Origin: Hyperoplus lanceolatus
Lineage: Eukaryota > Chordata > Actinopteri > Uranoscopiformes > Ammodytidae
Direction of reading: 5' to 3'
Length of the DNA stretch: 64,000 bases
Assembly: GCA_026929865.2 (NCBI GenBank)
Contig: CM049396.1
Coordinates: 19,275,001-19,339,000 of the forward strand
Of the stretch, positions 6,280 to 20,819 are shown piece after piece (within the stretch, counting starts at the first letter, position 1; every line of letters starts with the position of its first letter). A program made the translations under genes and the position numbers. The notes beneath the pieces are model-generated. The model made no database searches. It saw only the letters and a list, made by a program, of their open reading frames with translations, and was not told the DNA's origin.

Positions 6280-6287
6280 CAAATGTC
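6280..6287. repeat. Target-site duplication of the Merlin element, left copy
   Basis: CAAATGTC stands directly before the GG end of the left arm. The identical octamer at 19878-19885 directly follows the right arm. A perfect 8-bp match at both boundaries supports a single insertion event for everything between. Confidence 0.88.
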
Positions 6288-7392
6288 GGTAAAGCTTTAC
6301 ATTACGTAGACACTCGTCAGCATTAATTGATACTTAACTAATGCCTAGTTCATCCTGAGTTAATGTAGGACTCATGTAATACTCATAGATGACTCAGCCA
6401 TGAATGAATGGTTACTCCATCAGTAACTAATCAGAAGTCAGTCTTAATTACAGACTGAGTCTTTAATGATCATTGCTTACCTAAGACATCTATTGCAGAT
6501 TAACTCAGACATGTTTCTTAAAATGTATTAATACTATTAATTAATTAATTATTTACCAACAACACTTGAATTTAGAGTCCAGTATGTCAGCAACCTCCAT
6601 TTCGCAGTACTATTTGAACTGGTATCTGTTTATTAACGTACCTTAAGTCCTGTTTTTGGGATGGGAACATTTCTGCAGGATTCTTTGCAGTCCAGGATTA
6701 AAATCCAGGGGACATATGTGGCCAAGTGCTTGATGCATATATACTTGTTGGCAGTCCAAATATTATGACCTATTCACTGTGCAACTTTCCCACTTTGATC
6801 AAGCATACGTGTATATGTGTGGCCTTTCAGGCAGTATCAACAGATATAACCACAACCAGAAGTTACTTAATAATTAATTAATAGTTATGTGTCCCGCTAG
6901 GTAAAGCCACAACATGAAGATATATTTGTAATTCCTTACCTAATGACTAACTAATACAGGTACATATCATGATTTCATTTTAATATGGTAGTATGAAAAA
7001 CTATTGTCAATAATGGTTAGTTGAGTGTTATGTGTCCCGCTAGGTAAAGTCACAACATGAAGATATATTTGCAAATAATTACTTAATGATTAACTAAGAC
7101 AGGTAAAGAGCTTGATTTATCTGAAAGACGGATGTGACAAATATACAATCAGTACAAAACTGTTATATTTACATGACTGCATTCCCGTTGTGATTTAACA
7201 AAGGCTACTGTATATTTCTTCATTGAAGACCATCATTTGGGATTTTAAAAGTTTTATTGTATTCAAAAATTTTAATTTTCTGTTAAAAGAACATTCACAA
7301 AAAAAGATCAAATAAAACCAAGCAATCTTTATTAGCTAGCTTGTTGTGGCAAAATAACAGCATTGACATCTTCAACCTTATCTCAAAAGCCC
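6288..7392 (+). repeat. Left terminal inverted repeat of the Merlin element
   Basis: This arm, read forward, matches the reverse complement of 18184-19877 along nearly its whole length. Landmarks found in both are the end GGTAAAGCTTTAC, the block around 6450-6700 and the inner block with GCTTGTTGTGGCA near 7340. The arm holds an internal direct duplication: the block starting TTATGTGTCCCGCTAGGTAA occurs at about 6886 and again at about 7028. It lacks roughly 40 bp present in the right arm near 19395-19440. Arms over 1 kb long are unusual for Merlin, whose inverted repeats are known to be mostly short. Confidence 0.85.
7328..7333 (-). terminator. Poly(A) signal candidate for the CCDC106-like gene
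   Basis: AATAAA is read on the minus strand about 240 nt past the stop codon of the CCDC106-like gene, near the inner edge of the left terminal repeat. A second AATAAA lies at 7253-7258. The transcript would therefore end inside the repeat arm. Confidence 0.45.
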
Positions 7393-7571
7393 GTACTAAC
7401 ATAAAGCTCTAAGCTTTACATGGTAGACAATGAAAATATAACCTATGTTCTTTAATATAACCACGGCATCATAACAGCCATAACTACAGTATTTTGCTAT
7501 GCATTTCTACAAAGGAAACGTATTTATAATGTCCTTAAACTGACTGCATCAGAAGAATGCATCAAAGACCT

Positions 7572-10500
7572 TTATTTGATGTCTAGAAGGTCATTGGCTT
7601 GTTTCAATCCAACAATGACTCCAGCATTTGGCTCCAAAATACACTGCGACTTGCATTTGTCTGCAAACCTTTGGAGGCTATCCCCCTTCTTAAATCTAGC
7701 CCTCAAAACCTTGAACATGTCCGGATTTGCTGCTGCTAACTCTGCGATAGCTGCCTGGTAGACAATCGTGTTCCTGTCCACTCGAATCGTGTTGTATGCA
7801 TCGGATTTTGTCGCGCCACCCTTCACAAGACCAAGGACCCTGTAATAGCGCTGGATGGATTCTTCAGGAGTTTTTACTGAAAGAAAAGCACACAAAGTGT
7901 GTTTAAACATCATCAGGATGAAGGGAATGCATGAGTAGAGAACAAAGAAAACAAATGTATAAGGTTGTGCATTCCCACCAATAAATAGCGCAAAGTTACT
8001 TCTAAAGCTCTAGAGCTGAATACCATTCTATCGTAACTACATTTATCATTTCACAATGTCACAAATAGGGATGCCCATGGTTAACCGCTTAACCGTTAAG
8101 AATAATTATAACCGATTAATACTAAAGGTTCAACGGTAAAAAAATAAAAATAAAGATTTCAGCCCAACATTTGTAACTTCACGACTGTCCGTATGGAAAG
8201 CACACCGACTGTGGATGCTCAAGTACGTAAAGCCTTTCGCAACTGTGATGCCGCTTGTCAGGGGTGCCCTCAAAAAATAGTATTGCAATGTTGAAAAAAA
8301 AGAAAAAAAGAAAGATGGTAACATAAAAATGCAACATCATCCACCCAATACATGTGGACTCCACTGCTCCCTGTGGGACAGTCAACCGGGGCAGACTATC
8401 GTCAGCCCAGTCGGTGACCGGCTCACGTCAAAGGTGGAAGGGATCAGCCACTATGAAAACAATTCTAAATGGACATCTCTAGTCAAAAACACATTTCCTG
8501 TTTTTCAACATACTGTATAGTACCTCTCTTGTATTCTTTAGCCTTTGATTTGGACTTCTTCTTGTTGTGTTTCTTCTTTTTCATCTTCTTTGGTGAGGGC
8601 TCTGACCCAGATGTATCAGATGTAGAATCTGAGTCAGACTCTTTCGAGCTGCTGTCTTCTGGATACTTTTTAGGTGTGTCTACCAGTGCAGGCCGGGAAA
8701 CCATCTGTGACTGTACTGCAACTTGCAATTCAAGGGCTGTCAAAAAGAACACATTGAAACTATTTTATCTATTGTGTCTTGAACTGAGAAAAAATATTTT
8801 AAGGTTTATATGGTCGCACAGTTTAACCGGAAACACAGTGTTACTTTTTAAACAAAAACTTAAAGATCCACCATGCAAGATTCAGAAATTCCTTCTCAAA
8901 AGCGGCACAAGTGGTGGTAAAGTGACACACAATACATGGGATTGACCGGTTATAATGATGACTGAAGTAAATTTTGTTGCACGGTTTAGTTTATTTCTAC
9001 ATAGTGGACTGAATGTCGTTGTAAAAAAATGTATAGGTAATATAACAAGTTCTGTAATTTAGTCCTAGAGATACTAGTTAGAACCAAGCCCTACATTTTC
9101 AACATGCACCTTCTCAGAACTTACCATCTTTCAGTCTGTCACGAAGGTAATTTCTTTCTTCCTCAAGGGAGGTGATCTTCTCCTTGAGGTTCTCAATTGT
9201 TTGTTTGGCTTTGTGAAGCATCATTTGGACCGTTGGAGCCTCACCTTAAAGAAAAAAATTATAATTAGTTTATGGCCTAATAGCATAACATCTGACATGC
9301 AAACAAATATTCACAATGATATAATGAAATTTAGCATATCACAACAGAAACAATTTAAAATAAATAAATACATTTACTGTATTTTAAAGTTTATATTTGC
9401 AATATTATCCATGGAAAACAGAAATATTGGTTACATTCAGAGAAAAGTACAAATATTTTACAAATAAGATCCTATTTGGATATGCAACCAGTTGTTGAAC
9501 GTTTCTATCATTAAGTGATATTGAAACAGATTCACAGGCTTACATGCCTAATGTGAATTATGATTTTTTATGAGTAAAGATTAATTACCACTTTAGGATT
9601 TATCATTGAAGTTATGTGACTCAACAGTTCATAAAAGTGTGTATACTATAGTTTAATGACACCACTGATGTAAACCAACCTTCCTCATCATTGTTCTTAT
9701 GCACCCTTTGGTCATCATTTGTCTTTTCCACCCTTTTTCGAAGTCGTATCTCTGAGAATTTATAAGTGTTATACGAGACAGTTATATTAACATTAACTCA
9801 AGATAGCAAACAAATGTATCTATAAACATTAAAGCGTATTTTATTAAAGCTTTTTTTCTTCCAAAATAACTTACTTGGAAAGTCAAACCCAAATGTTAAT
9901 ATTACTCCAGGCAAACACAAGGCTAATAATCCATTGGCCAGACCAGATATTAGAACCATCTGGGTGTGCAAATTCTAGTTGTGATTTTGTTTTATCCTAT
10001 ACATCCCTAGCAGAGGTATTGATGTGATAGACCTTTTATATTGTTAACTTTTTAGTGGTTATCCCCTCTTAAAGTATAGGATACTTGTAATAAAGGTGAC
10101 ACACTGCAGGTGAATAGGGTAACATTTTTAACTTGTACCATGACACTTTTCCAGTTGATCACAAACATTAAAACAGCAATTTCTTAAATTACAATTTTTC
10201 AGAAATGTTTGAATAAATATGTAGCCTAAATTTTGCAATATCGAACAAAATATGTGGAAATTTGCATTTCTTTCACATATTTTTTGATAGTATTGTTTGG
10301 ATTTATAACATGAAAAAAAGCTGTACTATCAATATTCTGTTTTGTGAAAAATTCCCACATAATGTGTAAGATATTGCCAGATTTGCAGATGTATTCAAAC
10401 ATTTCTCAAAAATGTGTCATTTGAAAAACAATCGTTTTAATGTACGTAATCAACTAGGAAGGTGTCACGATGATGTCTATACATTAGAAATGTTACCCTA

Positions 10501-11185
10501 CTCACCTGCAGAGTCTCGCCTACATTACAGAAGCATACACTTAAGAGGGGATAACCACTAAAAAGTTACCGATACAAAAGGTCTATCACATGATCTAGGG
10601 ATGTATAAAATCACAACTAGAATTTTCCCACACAGATTGTAGCCTACCGATAAGTGATATTGTAGGACTTGGCAATGGACTATAACGTGAGTACGCTAGC
10701 TTTTAATATTCCAACTGCATGTTACCCCAATGGACCTATAAAAAAAGGTTACCCCAGGCAAACATAACCATTAAACTAACATGACGTTAGCTAAATGTAG
10801 ACGTAGCCTACGTTTTACGAATGTTTGCTAACATGTCTGCTAACTTTTCTTAAAAACGTTCCCATAAAAGTCAGAAGAATTGAGCTGGTAGTTTGCAATT
10901 AGTTTGAGCTGGTAGTTTGCAGTTAGTTTACTAACCTCGTTTTGTTGCCTGCCTCTCCATTTCGGCCTCCTCCACGATGTCCGTCTCCGTGTGCAGTGTG
11001 GTGTTTTGAACGTCTTCACGGTCCATTGGTTTTATTGGAAGTGATATAATAGAGGACTGCAACTTGACCTGCCGCTCTGGAGGATCTTGCACCTCCTTTG
11101 TGTTATCAAAAGTACTGGATACAGATAGAGTTGGTGCTGTTCCATATATTTGAACGTTATTCAAAATGTTGAGAATCCCATACAT
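7572..11185 (-). CDS. CCDC106-like protein, five exons, intact
   Basis: Coding exons on the minus strand are 11185-10936, 9751-9680, 9244-9125, 8736-8524 and 7876-7572. All four introns have GT..AG ends and all are phase 1. The spliced frame is open for 319 codons from a true ATG to TAA. Parts in order: an unremarkable N-terminus (1-107); a predicted coiled coil (about 113-146, with IENLKEKITSLEEERNYL); a Ser/Asp-rich then Lys-rich nuclear-type tract (about 165-217); and a C-terminal conserved domain (219-319) opening VKTPEESIQRYYRVL and containing VDRNTIVYQAAIAELA, which looks like a helix-turn-helix. This order is that of fish proteins named coiled-coil domain-containing protein 106-like. 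Function is not established; nuclear localisation and DNA binding are inferences. It lies wholly inside the Merlin element, divergent from its transposase. Confidence 0.85.
8066..8481. mobile_element. hAT-type MITE in an intron of the CCDC106-like gene
   Basis: The ends are TAGGGATGCCC and, inverted, TAGAGATGTCC. They are flanked by the octamers GTCACAAA (8058-8065) and GTCAAAAA (8482-8489), which differ at one base. An 8-bp duplication and ends of this kind fit small non-autonomous hAT elements common in fish. It sits between the last two coding exons and leaves both splice junctions untouched. No coding capacity was seen. Confidence 0.7.
9964..10634. repeat. Foldback element in intron 1 of the CCDC106-like gene
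   Basis: The two halves are imperfect inverted copies of each other. The outer ends read TGTGCAAATTCTAGTTGTG and, inverted, TGTGGGAAAATTCTAGTTG. The inner parts share GGTTATCCCCTCTTAA and CTGCAGGTGA plus GTAGGGTAACAT-like blocks. Each arm is about 320 bp with many small differences, so this is an aged foldback MITE or palindromic duplication. No coding capacity and no clear target duplication were seen. Confidence 0.7.
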
Positions 11186-11873
11186 TTTTTAAGCTTTGTA
11201 AATAGGCTATTTCAACTTCAAGGTGGGTTGGGTTGCCAGATCTATCTAGTAAGGTCCTGTACTAAGTGAGAAAAAACATGACTGGATGAGGACATGAATA
11301 CATTTGCAAAAACAAATATATAATTAATTAAATAAAAATCTTGAGAGTGTGTTCTGAGAAAAGGTTGAATTGAATATGTTGATGAGACTATTAGCCTAGG
11401 CTACTTGTCACATCAGCCCATATCTGTAGGCCATAGGCCTATCAGTAATTTCCAACTCTGATCTCGGAAATCCGACTTCCCAGTACAACTGGAACGCACC
11501 ATTGCTTTGCCTATTTATTCCTAAATATAAGGAACCTATGTGGCTAATAACTGAAATTGATTAATCAGCAATAGAATATTTTAATAAAGCTACATTAATA
11601 TGTCATTTTAAATAAAATAAAAAATACAATTAACAATAAAATTGTGTGGTGAGTGTAAGAGTTTAGTTGACACATTTTTACTTATTTCCAGCCATTACAC
11701 ATGGCAACTTCCACCAAGCCTCGGATCGGAAAGGCGCCATCTTTCTTTGTAGGTCCATGGGCAGCATGTGCTTGTGCCGTGCACGGCTGAACGAATCGTG
11801 TTTCATCTAAAAATACCTAATAATTTTAAGAAAAATAATGAATCTTACACAATAATTATTACTTTTGGTTATT
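11186..11873. promoter_or_regulatory. Shared intergenic region between the two divergent Merlin-borne genes
   Basis: The CCDC106-like start codon (11183-11185, minus) and the first recognisable transposase codons (from 11874, plus) face away from each other across this interval. Any promoters for the two genes must lie here or in unrecognised 5' exons. No TATA box or other site could be assigned with confidence. A short segment at 11735-11765 carries a copy of the recurrent fish motif related to CTTTATATGTCCATG. Confidence 0.35.
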
Positions 11874-12281
11874 AAGAAGTCCACCAAGAAGGCTACCGCA
11901 AAGCTTATCAAATGGCTCCAGAAAAGAAGATTGTTGGCAAGAAACATTAAGTGTCAGAGATGTGGCTCCTTCATGAAAATGAAGAGACTATCTGATGTAT
12001 CTGATGGCGTTCACTGGTGGGTTGTATTTTTTTTTTCATAGGCCTAGCCTACATACTGTGAGACCAGGGTTCTCAACGCTCACGCAATGAGAGTGAGACA
12101 CACGCATTTCAGGCAATTCACACGCTCCACGCCACACCTTGCATTTCTCACGCAAATTATAACTCTGCCAAACTTTTTTTTTATATAGCTTCGATAAATC
12201 CTGACCGTCACCACCATCACATATTAGTGCATATTATGCATATTAGTTAACGTAACGTATTAGGCAAAGACTGAAGAGAGG

Positions 12282-12410
<129 letters not shown>

Positions 12411-13140
12411 GACTGCGGAGTGACCATAGTGACTGACTATGAGTGACAGATGGAAACTCCTATCATATGTGCGTTGACGGTCATTTGGCCAATCAGAACC
12501 TGTATTTGCCTTTGAGGGGCGGTGACATCAGTCAGTCAGAGCCTCTGCAGGGAAGTTGACTCTTTCCTCTCTCCATATTATCGGAGCATGCAAGAAGCCG
12601 CTGTAATAGTATTTTAACGTATTAATGTGCCTACTTTGGCTACTTTATGTGAATCAATTTTATGAATAAATACGCAGTTTGCTTTGTTGTTTTATTTGGC
12701 CGTTTGCATTGATATGCACGTTAATTAACAGCCGCGACTCGCGGACAGTCACTGCACATTATCGTGTCTATCTGTGTCTGTACACGAGAGAAACTACATG
12801 TAACTGGAGAGTAGTGTTAGCTATTTCTATGTTTTTGAATGATGGTCATTATGTGGCTAGGATAATGAAAATCCTTTTTGCCACAATCTTAATAGTTTAT
12901 TGTAAGGGACTTTGGTGTGATTAAGTTGAGGCTCCATGTTATTATTGATGCCTGTTTTCCCTCACTCGTTTTCTAAAAATGTTTTTATCAACAAGCTGGT
13001 TTTTGCAATTTCACAATTTTCTGAGCAGTTTATTACCATTTTTCTTGGTAAATAACCACACACTTTTTATGGCTGACTAACTTGTTTTGCTCATTTAGTA
13101 CTCATCTGAACTGAAATAAATGTTGTCTTTTCCTTTATTC

Positions 13141-13907
13141 CAGGGGTCTCCAAACTTTTTTCACTGAGAGCCACATACAGAAAAATCTACGAAGGGCTGG
13201 GCCACTTTGCAAAAATAACACATTTATCAGGACATGTAGCTGCTCTGATGTTTAGTTTCATAGTGTCTTCGTAAATTGTAATCCTTCTTCACGGCAACAC
13301 TTTCCTTGCACATTAAACAGACACATTTCCCCTCTTGTTTATATGCCAATGATGCACCCAGTGTTTTCTGCCTTTGCGTCCAATGTCCAGCAGGGTGAAA
13401 ATAGTATCCAGCCGAGGTCCTGACCCTCCTAGAGAGGTCCGGGGGTATTTTAAAGTTTTTAAAGTGAAATGCATGAATCTGGTGCACTTTGAGAGGGAAA
13501 TTAAGAGGCTAAATCTGAAGAATTTTGTATGAAAAAAAAATGGAGACACTGTGTCAGATGAATTAGAAGCTATTGGAGAAGGACACTTCCATAATAATAT
13601 TATTTTAAAATAAAATACTATGCAGGGTCCTCTGGGATGGGCTTGTCGCTCATTTTCTTTTATGGGACATATTTCTCTGTAATATAATGAGTGCATTTAA
13701 ATTATTTAAAAATTAAAAGCGCCATATTACATTATATTTTTAAAATGTGCCACGGGCCAATCAATCAGTGTTTGACACCCCTGCACTAGTGGGTTAACTA
13801 AGAAATACAAAAAAAAAAATTTCAAAGGGCCATATTACATTAAATTTTTAAAATCGGCCACGGGCCAATGAAAAGCGGGCTCGTAGGCCGTAGTTTGGAG
13901 ACCCCTG
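13141..13907. mobile_element. hAT-Charlie-like non-autonomous element
   Basis: The ends are CAGGGGTCTCCAAAC and GTTTGGAGACCCCTG, a typical hAT terminal inverted repeat. The flanking octamers CTTTATTC (13133-13140) and CTTTAGTC (13908-13915) differ at one base. The minus strand at about 13227-13330 encodes CVCLMCKESVAVKKDYNLRR followed by HYETKH. This is a BED-type zinc finger of the kind found in Charlie-like transposases and their host derivatives. Only that fragment of the transposase remains. The element is nested two levels deep in the Merlin element. Confidence 0.8.
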
Positions 13908-15255
13908 CTTTAGTCTCTCCACAAAAAATACACCAAAATGGCTTCTATTACATGTTCAAATCACAAAAACAATCTTCTGAGGAGTTTAGTTAACAGATGT
14001 CATGTCACCTTTTTCATGGCTTATGACTTTGCACACCCCTCCTCACAATAATTGTAATTTTCAAGTGCAAAATGTGTTTGTATTAAGGGATATTTGTTCA
14101 AATGGTTTTAATGTAATGTAATGGGCATGAACTGAACTAAGAGTTTTACTGAAATAAAAGAGTTTTATAACCCAACACCCGTCAAGTTTATCCCCAACAC
14201 CCCCCCCCCCCCCCCCCCCCAACAACTACCCTAGGCCTACACCCATCTCACTAGTCTGGCATTTGGTATTAATCTTGTTGTTCTTACATCATAAAATTAC
14301 TACAATAGGCTATATTTTAACTAAAACAAATAAATTATACTGAACTGAACTTGTGTTAAAAACCATTATTATGCTTTAAATTAATAAATAAACACAAAAA
14401 TGTGTGCGCTTGCATGGGAAATCCGCTTCTGTCTCACGCTAAACAATTTCCAAAAGTTGAGAACCCTGTGAGACTTTGACCCCAACATTAGGCTACACGT
14501 TGGTTAGGCTATAGGCTAGTTATAGTCAAATTATCAACTTCACCGACAATTAGTAGCCTGTGTTCTTTCAGTCATTAAAGCAATCTGGTAGCCTATGTTA
14601 CGTTATTCAAGCGTCAGAGACTTTCAGTGGATTTGGGTTAGGGACAGAATATCGTTTTTGTAAGGGTTAACCAAGCTTCATTTAAAATTCTTATTTTTTT
14701 CAGAAACATGTTTTTGAATTACAATAACCTTACCACAAAATCTTGTCAAAAATGTTTGCTTTAAAAAGGGAATGCAGACATAAAAGCCACAGAGGAAAAA
14801 AATGCAGCCGCACTGTTAGAGCAGGCTCGCTCTTTGAGAAGTCCAGGATATCATTGTCTTCCTGGATGACATTTATTTACAGGTAAGTCAACATTTGTGT
14901 CCATATGATTAAATAATTAAATAGGTCACATTTGGTGATACTTTTACTGTTAATTATTGCTGCTGCTCAATAAGATCATTGTACCTCAAAATAATAAGAA
15001 ATATTCTCCCCTTCCAGGTTTTGTCAGGGCCTGCACCTCAGGCAAGTAGACATGATGGAAGATGGGATTGCAAAAAGTTCCCGCACTCTCTCCAAGATGG
15101 CTACAACTTTGAGAAAAGTTTGCCGCTGTACAATGAAAAGTTACAGAAGAAGGAACGCTCAAATGATTGGGGATGCCAGGGAATTTGGTTTCATTGATGA
15201 AAGCTGCTTCCGTCATAAACGTAAGGTGAGTGACATCTTACATGGAAGATTATAT

Positions 15256-15262
15256 ATATAAG

Positions 15263-15350
<88 letters not shown>
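15256..15350. repeat. (TA)n microsatellite
   Basis: A run of TA dinucleotides lies in the intron between the third and fourth recognisable transposase exons. It begins just after the splice donor region. Confidence 0.95.
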
Positions 15351-15351
<1 letters not shown>

Positions 15352-15850
15352 TGCTTTAGACCAGGTAGGGCTAAGTCGATAATAGCTGCAAAGGCTGATC
15401 TATTCCCTTTACTTACAATTATTAATATCTAATTGACATATGTGATTTATTCAGGTTTACTTAGCATGTAATTTGTAGTCATTGAGGTTTATTACCTACT
15501 TTATCTCTTATTACAGTAGTATGGCCGAGGAAGGGCAGCAGCAACATGGAGACGAAGAAAGTGGGTCTTTGGAACACTAGGAGTGAAGGATCAGAGGCGA
15601 CGTCCAGTCTTACGACTAGTGCAGAGACGAGGAAGGCAGGATCTGGTGCCGATAGTAGTTAGGCATGTGCGCCCAGGCACCACCATAATAAGTGATGAAT
15701 GAGAGAGCATATACACGTGCATTAACTGCCATGGGCTACACTCACTTCAGGGTGAATCACAGCCAGTGGTTTGTGGATCCAAACAGTGGAGCCCACACTC
15801 AGCACATTGAGAGAGCATGGTTGAAGTTCAAGTGAACTATTTGGAGACTT

Positions 15851-17914
15851 AGGGTGTATTCACACATGCCGTGTTTAGTTCGGTTGAAACGAACTCAGGT
15901 GCACTTCTGCCTTCAGTGCGCATCTTTCAGGCAGGTGTGAATACAGCAATCGCACTCGGGGGCGGACCAAACAAGCGGACCGAGACCCAGCTGAAGAGGT
16001 GGTCTCGATGCGCTTCAAAACGAACTCTGCTGCAGTTCGTTTGTGGTGTGAATTTGGCCGGACTCGATCCGACCCAATTGCAAGAAGCACTGCGCCTTTG
16101 ATTTATTTTCTTTTCTTTTTTTTCTTTTATCGCCATCAGCTTCACATTATGGGAAAGTGTTGTTGTCGCCGTTGTTAGGAAGATTAGTTGTGGTTTGACC
16201 GGGAGCCCCGAGCGAAAATATTACAGTTGATAATGACGCGTACACATGTTTATATGTTCAGCGATCTGATGGAGAGGGGAGCGTCTCCCGCACAGTGCCA
16301 ACAGGTTCACCCTGCGCTTTGCATGAAGTGTGTTTTTTTATTTTTCTTCCCAACGTGACCGTCAATACTGTCCCTGTGTCAGTTTGGAACTGAACTGCGC
16401 CGAACTGACACCCAGCTGATACACTGCTTAATCAGCTGAGTGTCAGCTTGAGCCTATTCTTCTCTCGAGCCGCGCTCCAACAGCAACCATACAGTAGGCT
16501 ATACATTATGTTTCACATCGTAGGCTACAAGCCACATAACGTGGCATTGACATTGTACATATTATAACCATATGAAACAACAATAATTACATTTTCTTCT
16601 TCTTTATTTATAGGCTAGATGTAGGCATTTTTATTATTTTTAACCCCGTATTATATCAATGATATATTTCGCTGTTTTTACTTCGTTCTTCCTGCTTCTC
16701 TCCACCCCAGAATGTCTGTCCAATGAATGAATGACCTCAGATCACGTGTGGTTTTGCTTCGTAATGCTGGTTCAATTGCAAAAGAGGCAATATGAAAGTG
16801 GACCACACCAAACAAAAAAAATCTAAACTCTATTTGGTCTGGACCAAAGCAAGTGAACTAACGGACTTTCCATGTGTGAATACACCCTTAGGGTGTATTC
16901 ACACATGCCGTGTTTAGTTCGGTTGAAACGAACTCAGATGCACTTCTGCCTTCAATGCGCATCTTTCAGGCAGGTGTGAATACAGCAATCACACTCGGGG
17001 GCGGACCAAACAAACGCTCCGAGACCCAGCTGAAGAGGTAGTCTCGGTGCGTTTCCAAACGCACTCTGCTGCAGTTCGTTTGTGGTGTGAATTTGTCCGG
17101 ACTCGATCCGACCCAAATGAAGGAGGCACTGTGCCTTTTCTTTCTTTTCTTTTTTAATAGATAGCCGTCAGCTTCACATTATGGGAAAGTGTTGTTGTTG
17201 CCATTGTTAGGACGATAAGTTGTGGTTTGACCGGGAGCCCAGAACAATATATTACATTTGATCGAGAGGACGCATAAACATGCTGAATGTGTTCAGCGAT
17301 CAGATGAAGGAGAGGGGAGCGTCTCTCGCACAGTGCCAACAGGTTCACGCTGCGCAAGAAATGTGTGTTTTTATTTTGCTTCCCATGTACGGGACCGTCA
17401 ATACCCCGTGTCAGTTTGGAGCTGAACTGCGCCGACCCAGCTGATACACAGCTTAATCAGCTGAGTGTCAGCTTGAGCCTATTTTTCTCGCGTGACGCGC
17501 GTCCAGCACCAAAACTACAGTAAAAATGATATTTCACATTGTAGGCTACACGCCACATAACGTTGCATTGACATAGGGCTACATATTATAACCATATGAA
17601 ACAACAATAATCCGATGTTTTTCCTCTTTATTTATAGGTTAGATGTTGGCCATTTTATTATTTTTAACCCCATATTATATCAATGATATATATTTCGTAG
17701 TTTTAACTTCGTGCTTCCTGTTTCTCTCCACCCCAGAATGTCTGTCCAATGAATGAATAACCTCAGATCACGTGTGGCTTTGCTTCGTAATGCTGGTTCA
17801 CTTGCAAAAGGGGCAATATGAAAGTGGACCACACCAAACAAAAAAAATCAAAACTCCATTTGGTCTGGACCAAAGCAAGTGAACTAGCGGACTTTCCCAG
17901 TGTGAATACACCCT
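15851..17914. mobile_element. Tandem pair of a ~1.03-kb non-autonomous DNA transposon
   Basis: Two head-to-tail copies (15851-16888 and 16890-17914) each begin AGGGTGTATTCACAC and end with its reverse complement, GTGTGAATACACCCT. They are highly similar throughout, with scattered substitutions and small indels. One T separates them. TA is present on both outer flanks, which may be the target duplication. No transposase is encoded. The pair interrupts the last transposase exon: coding sequence stops at 15850 and resumes at 17915. Copy 2 is not identical to copy 1, so the tandem state is not an assembly duplicate. Confidence 0.8.
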
Positions 17915-18183
17915 AAGAGGAAACCAAACGGAAAAAATCCTCAAGCAACACCTCTCACTCATTGAATGGACTTACTGGTTAGGTGAAAAGCATCAACAGG
18001 GTCCCCTTGGGAGACTGTTTAAAGACATTAGACATCAGTTTCACTTGTAGAAATGGTCAGTAAGAAACTGTAGTTATGGCTCTCTTGATGCAGTTTTAAG
18101 AACATAAAGAAATATGTTATATTTTTAATTTCCAGGGTTTAGCTTCAAGCTTGTTATATGTTTAAAGCAAAAATATCCAAATA

Positions 18184-19877
18184 AGGGCTTTTGAGATTAT
18201 TTTTTAGATGGAAATGCTGATATACTGCCACAACAAGCTATTATTTTTTGGATTGCTTTATTTTATATTAGATTTTTATGGATGTTGATTAAACAAAGAA
18301 AATGTTGCTTGAGGTAGAAACTTATTTGAATATAATAAAACTGTTAAAATCACAAATGATGGTCTTTAATAAATAAATATATTTTAGATGATTGGAATGC
18401 AGTCATGTAAATATAACAGTTTTGTACTGATTGTATATTTGTCACAACTGTCTTTCAGATAAATCAAGCTCTTTACCTGTCTTAGTTAATCATTAAGTAA
18501 TTATTTGCAAATATATCTTCATGCTTCAGCTTTTAAGATCAGTTCTGCTCCGTTCTGAGTTTCTGACATTGCAGAGTTTGTTTTGCCCTTTTATTGTGGC
18601 CTTTTCAATGTCATTATCTGGTAGTCTAAACACAACTGCAAAAGTATTCAAACCCAAACAAGTCATTCTGTTGACCTATCTTTTACAATAATGTTATGAA
18701 AGTGCCATCCACCTTTTATCAGCTTCTTAGTGCTCTGCATTCAGTCTATAATTTTCCATAATTTTAGAGACATACATTTTTTTGAAATTTCGCAAACTGC
18801 AACTCCCTGTGATATCTTCATCAAGTTCATTCCATAATTTAATACCCTTTACAGAAATCGAAAATGATTTAAGTGTGGTCCTTATGTTTTTCTCTGTGAA
18901 TCTTCTTTTTCTTCTTAAATCATGTGAGACTCCTCTTTCTTCAAACATTGCTTGTAAACTGACTGGAAGGCTTTTTTTTGAAGCCTTGTACATCATTTGT
19001 ACGGTGTGGTAACTTACTACGTCCCGTAATTTGAGAATTTTACCATCAATAAAGAAGTTATTAGTGCGTGCCCTGCGTTATTAGTGCGTACATAACACTC
19101 AACTAGCCATTATTGACAATAGTTTTTCATACTACCATATTAAAATGAAATCATGATTTGTACCTGTATTAGTTAGTCATTAGGTAAGGAATTGCAAATA
19201 TATCTTCATGTTGTGACTTTACCTAGTGGGACACATAACTATTAATTAATTATTAAGTAACTTCTGGTTGTGGTTATATCTGTTGATACTGCCTGAAAGG
19301 CCACACATATACACGTATGCTTGATCAATGTGGGAAAGTTGCACATTGAATAGGTCATAATTTTTGGACTGCCAACAAGTATATATGCATCAATATCCGA
19401 GCAATTACCTTCCGTCACTTCTAATGGAAGTGAAAGCACTTGGCCCTGGATTTTAATCCTGGACTGCAAAGAATCCTGCAGAAATGTTCCTATCTCAAAA
19501 ACAGGACTTAAGGTACGTTAATGAACAGATACCAGTTCAAATAGTACTGTGAAATGGAGGTTGCTGACATATTGGACTCTAAATTCACGTGTTGTTGGTA
19601 AATAATGAGTTAATAGTATTAATACATTTTAAGAAACATGTCTGAGTTAATCTGTAATAGATGTCTTAGGTAAGCAATGATCATTAAAGACTCAGTAGCC
19701 TATGTAATTAAGACTGACTTCTGATGACTTCTGATTAGTTACTGATGGAGTAACCATTCATTCATGGCTGAGTCATCTATGAGTATTACATTAGTCCTAC
19801 ATTAACTCAGGATGAACTAGGCATTAGTTAAGTATCAATTAATACTGATGAGTGTCTACGTAATGTAAAGCTTTACC
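18184..19877 (-). repeat. Right terminal inverted repeat of the Merlin element
   Basis: This is the inverted partner of 6288-7392. It is longer (about 1.7 kb) because a LINE 3' fragment replaces a short stretch at about 18528-19088. On each side of that insert the match to the left arm resumes. The outer 400 bp is the best preserved part. Confidence 0.85.
18528..19088 (-). mobile_element. LINE 3' fragment inside the right Merlin arm
   Basis: The minus strand at 18727-18996 encodes the extreme C-terminus of a LINE reverse transcriptase protein, with a YKASKKSLP segment and the motif VKGIKLWNELDEDI. That is the end expected for L2-like fish LINEs. The fragment breaks the inverted repeat and replaces about 20 bp of arm sequence. 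Only the 3' end is present, as expected of 5'-truncated insertion. Confidence 0.7.
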
Positions 19878-20819
19878 CAAATGTCTAATTTAATGAAGTT
19901 TGGTTTCTATTTCTATTATTCATTACAATGTTGGTACCTCATTAAAGGTCACATATTATGCTAAATGCACTTTTTAAATGTGTTCCAACATGTCCATGGG
20001 TCCACGGTGTGCCTAGAGACTGCCAAAATATCAAAAAAAACTAGAAATCCCACGGAGATTTTGAAAGTACGGGCCGCCCGTGCAAATCGGGGAAGAAAAA
20101 AAATCACGGCCGACCCCTGTGGTCCGAGAGACTTTACCGTAGAGCGGCACGAGCTGTACATGTCTGACAAATGATGAGTCAATCGGAGTCAGGGGGAAAG
20201 GGGCGTGGCCTGGCAAACATTGCATCGGCGAATGACGTTTTTCGCATTTGCGGCGCCCCCTACGGGTTGACCTCGACAAGCTTAGAGGGAGACGCCACCA
20301 CATGTCTTTTGCACGTATCCTGCAAGTTTCATGATGATAGGACCTACGGTCAATGAGTTACGGCCAACGTGTTATTAAGCCCCGACCCTGCGTAAACGTT
20401 TTAGTCAATGGCGGCCCTGTTTTTGAAGCTATCCTACCAATATTTTTCGGAGACGTGCGTCATAGTCCCCCGGGGCTTCGTGACACATTTGGCGTTGATG
20501 GAGTAACACTTGAAAAAGTTGTGGATAAAACCCTGTTTTTCAGTTTATGCTAATTAGCCGAAAGTATTTCCAGGTTGACTCTTATGTTCCGAGAAGCTTT
20601 TTGGTAGAGCACCCTAAAATACACCAGTGTGAGAAATTTCAAGTTAATCGGACTTACGGTGTGCGGGGCGCGGCCTCTCAAACTTTCTTCAGTCGGGGAT
20701 TAATAACAGCGCCCCCTAGCGGAAATTAAAAAAAAATTCCTTTGAGCGAAATTGTAGAGCACCATGAGCTGTACATGTGTAATCAATTTCAAGTCAATCG
20801 GAGTCGGGTGACTTTTGTG

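Follow-up and report, generated by a model that had tools for sequence, protein, structure and literature searches.

Does a CCDC106-like gene that lies within the ends of a Merlin DNA transposon belong to this transposon, or did it get there by accident? The question is raised by a 64,000-nucleotide stretch of the Hyperoplus lanceolatus genome (contig CM049396.1, positions 19,275,001 to 19,339,000 of the forward strand; hereafter the window). Here, positions 6288-19877 are occupied by an element with a Merlin-type transposase gene on the plus strand and a CCDC106-like gene on the minus strand. Merlin elements are usually described with one transposase gene only, and an earlier note on this DNA had suggested that a large form with a divergent CCDC106-like gene would be a new architecture. 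Our analysis supports this suggestion, as such gene pairs were found within their own ends in elements on C9 and C21 of the same genome. We consider it probable that the window element represents a two-gene Merlin transposon in degenerate form and that the CCDC106-like protein is a partner of the transposase, similar to the second protein of Harbinger elements.

The element is directly flanked by a perfect 8-bp target-site duplication, CAAATGTC (6280-6287 and 19878-19885), as the earlier note had read it, and GGTAAAGCTTTACATTACGTAGACACTC is read inward from both ends. Its inverted ends indeed exceed 1 kb. According to a self-alignment, the outer arms (6288-7033 and 19090-19877) are 90% alike over 792 columns (E=0) and the inner arms (7056-7540 and 18017-18523) 74% alike over 525 columns (E=4.6e-92). 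The left arm as a whole (6288-7540, plus strand) measures ~1.25 kb. With ~1.86 kb, the right arm (18017-19877, minus strand) is longer because of an insertion at ~18524-19089, which is absent from a related copy on C15. Between the end of the left inner arm and the CCDC106-like stop codon lie ~30 bases (7540 vs 7572-7574), and the right inner arm crosses the stop codon of the transposase gene (18017 vs 18048-18050); the back-to-back gene pair occupies the whole space between the arms. A 108-nt subterminal repeat is present twice on the plus strand (6868-6975 and 7011-7118; 83% alike), and a short element of the same family (L042) has an arm with four copies of a 125-nt repeat.

The second gene was described in the earlier note as a separate spliced gene on the minus strand, which agrees with our results. 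Five predicted exons are joined by one open frame of 319 amino acids, all four predicted introns have AG/GT borders, and the protein matches positions 7-218 of the 220 positions of the Pfam model CCDC106 (PF15794; E=4.2e-43, 148.1 bits vs a cut-off of 30.2). Exon 1 (10936-11185) contains the start codon and is followed by exon 2 (9680-9751), exon 3 (9125-9244) with a stretch that reads as coiled-coil-like, and exon 4 (8524-8736), in which a Ser/acidic stretch precedes a Lys-rich stretch. The last exon (7572-7876, including the stop codon) encodes a C-terminal helical domain, for which an AlphaFold model predicts six helices with a mean predicted local distance difference test score (pLDDT) of 90. 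In the model, a partly conserved VDRNT motif is surrounded by a stretch of short helix, turn and long helix, and this shape suggests that the domain may bind DNA. No Myb/SANT match was detected for the protein in Pfam at E-values up to 1.

The Merlin/IS1595 transposase gene comprises four or more exons on the plus strand. An exon with the first Cys pair (11856-12016) has an open frame from ~11856; exon start and start codon were not identified in the window copy. Further exons are exon 2 (14769-14882), exon 3 (15018-15225), which holds the first catalytic Asp (FIDES), and the last exon, whose first part (15520-15851) contains the second Asp (ISDE) and the Glu (HIERAW), and whose remainder ends with the stop codon (17914-18050). 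The motifs IDES, ISDE and HIERAW were read directly in the C15 relative and in the window pieces, and we take them to be the catalytic D, D and E blocks. The earlier note had correctly placed a Merlin-type transposase on this strand but has to be corrected as to its state: the window copy is broken, as its last exon is frame-shifted, interrupted by an in-frame stop and split by a pair of miniature inverted-repeat transposable elements (MITEs). Scored alone, the window pieces reach only 23.9 and 18.3 bits with PF12762 (DDE_Tnp_IS1595; cut-off 27), and in a genome-wide search the locus reaches 27.2 bits only with neighbours in frame. The relatives on C15, C4 and C21 score 54.6, 46.6 and 46.3 bits, and in the C15 relative, 94-98% alike to the window element, the corresponding last exon is intact. 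The N-terminal part of the transposase gave a zinc-ribbon match just below its cut-off (24.2 vs 25.3). The window element is an old, damaged Merlin copy.

To what extent the gene pair is a regular feature can be assessed from other Merlin elements of the host genome (807 Mb, 527 contigs), in which a transposase search revealed 10 multi-exon loci and 5 fragments. One of them, C9:2912070-2928605, is a 16.5-kb element with inverted arms of 1.47 kb (86% alike) and a perfect 8-bp duplication, GGCAATTT. It carries the transposase on the minus strand and a CCDC106-like exon on the plus strand, which is the same back-to-back layout as in the window, and its arm contains an array of 5.4 copies of a 102-nt repeat. 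A second element, on C21, measures 6189 bp with arms of ~0.56 kb and also contains both genes back to back; its match to CCDC106-like exon 5 is partial (residues 2-59 of 101). Counting C21 with its relative C4 as one family, three diverged families (window, C9 and C21/C4) have both genes enclosed by one pair of ends. The CCDC106-like domains of these families are only ~31-44% identical, and the domain is still an open frame in the window, C4 and C9. Inverted ends range from ~0.56 to 1.5 kb across the three families and start with GGTAA (seen in the window, nine short copies, C21 and C9), the 8-bp duplication is seen in two of them (window and C9), and full elements measure 6.2 kb (C21), ~8.6 kb (window, without nested insertions) and 16.5 kb (C9, total span). 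Because separate Merlin families carry the same pair, the CCDC106-like gene seems to belong to the element regularly and not by accident.

The co-location of both genes was also evident on the level of the whole genome. A Pfam search gave 30 matches for PF15794, grouped by hand into 22 loci, and 12 loci for PF12762. Five of the latter (window, C4, C9, C21 and C3:132k) have a PF15794 locus at a distance of no more than 15 kb, while random placement of 12 and 22 points resulted in a mean of 0.01 co-located loci and never more than two in 20,000 trials. The locus on C3 (131.6-140 kb) represents a fourth lineage, in which both genes lie on the same strand, 6.7 kb apart, and are seen as neighbours only. 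A CCDC106-like exon was also detected on C16 (634511-634804), 0.7 kb downstream of exon 1 of a fourth-lineage transposase (635538-635714) and on the same strand. Inverted repeats at this place (C16:634k; L058 3118-3188 and 7878-7948) lack support as Merlin ends: neither a GG start nor a duplication was seen. With 126 matches up to E 10, the start piece of fourth-lineage exon 1 (~22-32 amino acids, e.g. C16:635538-635714) occurs at ~100 places in the genome; these pieces are probably kept in non-autonomous copies.

Derivatives of the two-gene elements keep one gene or neither. A search with C21-type ends gave 68 candidates, of which 40 were scored and their contents judged against the gene hit lists. 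Such ends enclose the transposase only at C3:20372702-20376378, the CCDC106-like gene only at C6:6500226-6504009 and C13:16849811-16852438, and neither gene in copies of ~1.9 kb. For the ends of the C9 family, at least 409 candidate matches were found; 40 of them were scored and have identities of 96-100%, which indicates a recent burst.

Copies of the window family were searched with the first 201 bp of the window element. Scoring 40 of the 101 candidates resulted in 30 loci, including the window, and 26 of these (25 of 29 without the window) have a CCDC106-like exon-5 match within 4 kb. Among the scored candidates it is thus not the case that copies with these ends never hold the gene, which the earlier note had named as an observation that would speak against the two-gene element. 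Of the end loci without an exon-5 match, C5:8.65M (L045) retains exon 1, C15 (L047) is a transposase half, C1:19.68M (L050) shows one end and neither gene, and C6:3.94M has no match in the genome lists of CCDC106-like and transposase hits.

Twelve of the 29 non-window loci were compared as longer stretches, leaving out alignments below 100 bases and, in a further comparison, below about 80 or 60 bases. Ten of them (L039-L046, L048 and L049) contain relics of exon 1 and/or exon 5 of the CCDC106-like gene and no transposase match at E-values up to 0.01, and their DNA reaches ~11925, where the transposase exon 1 frame has just begun. Nine short copies have both ends in the stretch; they measure 3.3 to 4.0 kb, with an 8-bp duplication that is perfect in five and contains one or two mismatches in four. 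What the short copies keep are pieces of the first and last exons of the CCDC106-like gene and, largely, the region between the divergent genes (11186-11855), which probably is a promoter region. The relics carry stops, so that no full protein is to be expected from the short copies. The CCDC106 search added one more copy, L052 (C1:365k), in which both exons and parts of the two ends are preserved. Compared to window positions 6288-11925, short copies such as L042 are ~90-95% alike in the outer arms and mostly 66-81% in their interiors, which suggests that the CCDC106-like gene was already aboard an older relative; it appears as if the middle had diverged and the ends had been swapped or kept constant. 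An imperfect palindrome of 686 bp in intron 1 of the CCDC106-like gene (9955-10640) is older than the window insertion because the short copies share it. The earlier note had proposed to look for copies with both genes inside the same ends. While C9 and C21 provide them in two diverged families, no second copy of the window family with both genes was found among the other copies examined, each of which represents one half or the other.

We also compared amino-acid and silent changes (pN/pS) between the loci. For the CCDC106-like domains, pN/pS was 0.46 to 0.71 in all 15 pairs of six loci (rows L051 and L060 were left out), with 0.60, 0.66 and 0.70 for the element-borne pairs of window, C4 and C9. 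Transposase exon 3 showed 0.42 to 0.46 in four between-family comparisons and 0.39 between window and C15, and the last exon 0.38 between C15 and C4. As a rough statement, both genes appear to have fewer amino-acid than silent changes between families.

Other CCDC106-like loci occur in the same genome. Three host-like loci match both ends of the Pfam model, namely C7:22868575 (the best, 176 bits), C21:7134874 and C19:4767760. The stretch C21:7133920-7135176 is a single open frame of 476 amino acids, matched by the CCDC106 model at 2-47, 55-131 and 121-219, and this host-like relative is therefore intronless there. A tree was built from 103 columns and 10 rows, taken from at least 22 loci and leaving out L051. 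It places the C9 row with the two host rows (88/90), and the four element rows part from these host rows at only 76/77. Divergence between the C-terminal domains is deep, and no direction of descent between the host and the element gene emerges from the tree. Further loci (C16:22.43M, C210 and C10:3.19M) encode the same C-terminal domain as the element, some in open frames, and no Merlin transposase match was found in the 9.9-kb stretches around C16:22.43M and C210. Near two CCDC106-like exons, L053 contains an open frame of 820 amino acids that runs to the end of the stretch (7442-9901, plus strand) and presumably belongs to a Copia-type retrotransposon polyprotein. Viral contigs searched for relatives in other organisms gave 15 and 22 pattern matches, none of which was confirmed.

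The likeliest mechanism, by analogy, is that the CCDC106-like protein serves as a DNA-binding partner of the transposase. It would pair through its coiled coil, enter the nucleus via the Lys-rich stretch and bind the long element ends with its C-terminal helical domain. The subterminal repeats (~108-125 nt in the window family, 102 nt in C9; all in all ~100-125 nt) are possibly the sites that are bound. The protein would then assist the transposase in locating the ends and bringing them together, a task that the Myb-like protein has in Harbinger.

Several observations weigh against a transposase partner that is a fixed part of these elements. Only four of the ten multi-exon transposase loci have a divergent partner and one a same-strand partner, and for the other five (C15, C1:6.80M, C2:38.16M, C17 and C3:20.37M) the hit lists contain no CCDC106-like partner. 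Regarding the families, the C21 element shows no clear target-site duplication, and the C4 element, 95.5% alike to C21, has lost its right end. The short copies of the window family mostly share one internal deletion and are not independent events; they therefore largely reflect one amplified event and not many. Silent changes between families are saturated, so that selection can be stated only roughly, the element-borne CCDC106-like pairs are among those with weaker pN/pS values, and C4 and C21 differ in transposase exon 3 by two amino-acid changes and zero silent ones. A PDB sequence search with the C-terminal domain revealed nothing significant (best E 0.049, RsbU).

A first alternative is a passenger, i.e. 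a host CCDC106 gene that was captured by an ancestral Merlin element and has no role in transposition. Host-like CCDC106 genes exist in the same genome at the three loci given above, and transposase-bearing copies without the CCDC106-like gene occur at C3:20.37M and C15. Useless cargo would, however, be expected to decay, and for this reason the open frames in families as diverged as window, C4 and C9 weigh against this explanation, which we regard as unlikely. Alternatively, the protein might repress or time the transposase or act on host DNA-damage signalling and not take part in the cut itself. Human CCDC106 is reported as a p53-interacting partner (PMC10713525) and has been linked to p53 stability (PMC6423756), and the exon pieces and intergenic region kept in the short copies could point in this direction as well; the stops in these relics speak against it, and such a regulator appears quite improbable to us.

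It is also conceivable that the gene, or an independent element containing it, inserted into a Merlin element, or that the long inverted ends belong elsewhere. The window element is heavily nested (hAT-like element, MITEs, right-arm insert), which could be taken to favour such a coincidence, but the same pair occurs in diverged families with their own ends, the inner inverted arms of the window element run up to both genes, and the five co-located loci far exceed the random expectation. The C9 and C21 elements rule out a CCDC106-like gene that came in by chance or as a nested insertion, and we assign next to no probability to the coincidence as a whole.

The nested insertions themselves account for much of the window element's size. 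Of the 13.6 kb given by the earlier note, ~5 kb consist of later insertions, without which the element measures ~8.6 kb. A hAT-like element of 2404 bp (12065-14468), foreign to the Merlin element, lies in a transposase intron and contains an apparent insert of 763 bp (13143-13905). A Spin-doc-type zinc-finger remnant (PF18658, E=2.3e-8) was detected within these nested elements on the minus strand (13227-13508). The transposase exon is split at 15852-17913 by two head-to-tail MITEs of 1036 and 1023 bp (15852-16887 and 16891-17913) with TTA-type duplications. They are 87% alike and have a common TTA where they meet; one of them may have landed in the duplication of its neighbour. The segment of ~0.57 kb in the right arm (~18524-19089) is a later insertion too, and the C15 copy has empty sites for both the MITE pair and this insertion. 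An open stretch of 116 amino acids within the latter (18727-19077, minus strand) has no Pfam match and resembles what we take to be the C-terminal part of a long interspersed nuclear element (LINE) reverse transcriptase.

If the CCDC106-like protein is indeed a partner of the transposase, Merlin would add a second superfamily in which a partner gene is retained, and partner recruitment would have occurred more than once. CCDC106, reported as a p53-binding protein, would gain a possible connection to transposons, and the two-gene lineage may explain part of the CCDC106-like loci that are scattered through the host genome. It may even be speculated that the whole Merlin lineage is a two-component system in need of a CCDC106-type partner, with vertebrate CCDC106 as a domesticated partner gene, which we consider a rather doubtful extension.

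Judged by transposase domain, duplication and terminal GG, the element is a Merlin transposon, one of the eukaryotic relatives of IS1016/IS1595. hAT elements likewise have an 8-bp duplication, their ends start with CA and their transposases contain hAT/BED domains; a hAT identity of the outer element was ruled out by the GG ends and by the lack of a hAT domain in the transposase pieces. PIF/Harbinger elements have a Harbinger DDE transposase and a 3-bp duplication, and this identity was ruled out by the 8-bp duplication together with the lack of a Harbinger transposase in the Pfam results. The features found correspond to the published criteria for Merlin, which are a DDE_Tnp_IS1595 transposase, an 8- or 9-bp target-site duplication and 5'-GG ends (PMC8101967). 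Unlike the inverted ends of 24-462 bp reported in that survey, as a range and not as a strict criterion, those of the two-gene elements reach from ~0.56 kb (C21) over ~0.75 to 1.25 kb (window) to 1.47 kb (C9), all beyond the survey range (PMC8101967). A second gene within the ends, as seen in three families, is a further difference: in the available text of the survey, IS1595 is described with one transposase gene only, and one extra overlapping open reading frame, judged a chance product, and fused domains are mentioned but no separate partner gene (PMC8101967). Both genes of the element have introns, a word absent from that text. Our literature search revealed no report linking Merlin with CCDC106 or an accessory second gene, and four papers that mention CCDC106 together with transposable elements appear to deal with different topics; Repbase was outside this search, and a precedent that exists only in databases is possible. 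As far as the searched literature shows, the two-gene Merlin lineage represents a new architecture for a known superfamily.

With the CCDC106 model of Pfam, the element's protein aligns over nearly the full length; unlike vertebrate CCDC106, its gene is carried inside transposon ends, and its C-terminal domain is deeply diverged. The closest parallel for the arrangement is found in PIF/Harbinger, whose Myb-like protein is described to interact with the transposase, to mediate nuclear import and to bind the terminal inverted repeats (PMC9179366). In both systems, two separate genes, for a DDE transposase and a small, putatively DNA-binding protein, are kept across families. The two-gene Merlin elements differ from PIF/Harbinger in the transposase superfamily, in the target duplication and in their second protein, which is CCDC106-like and not Myb-like.

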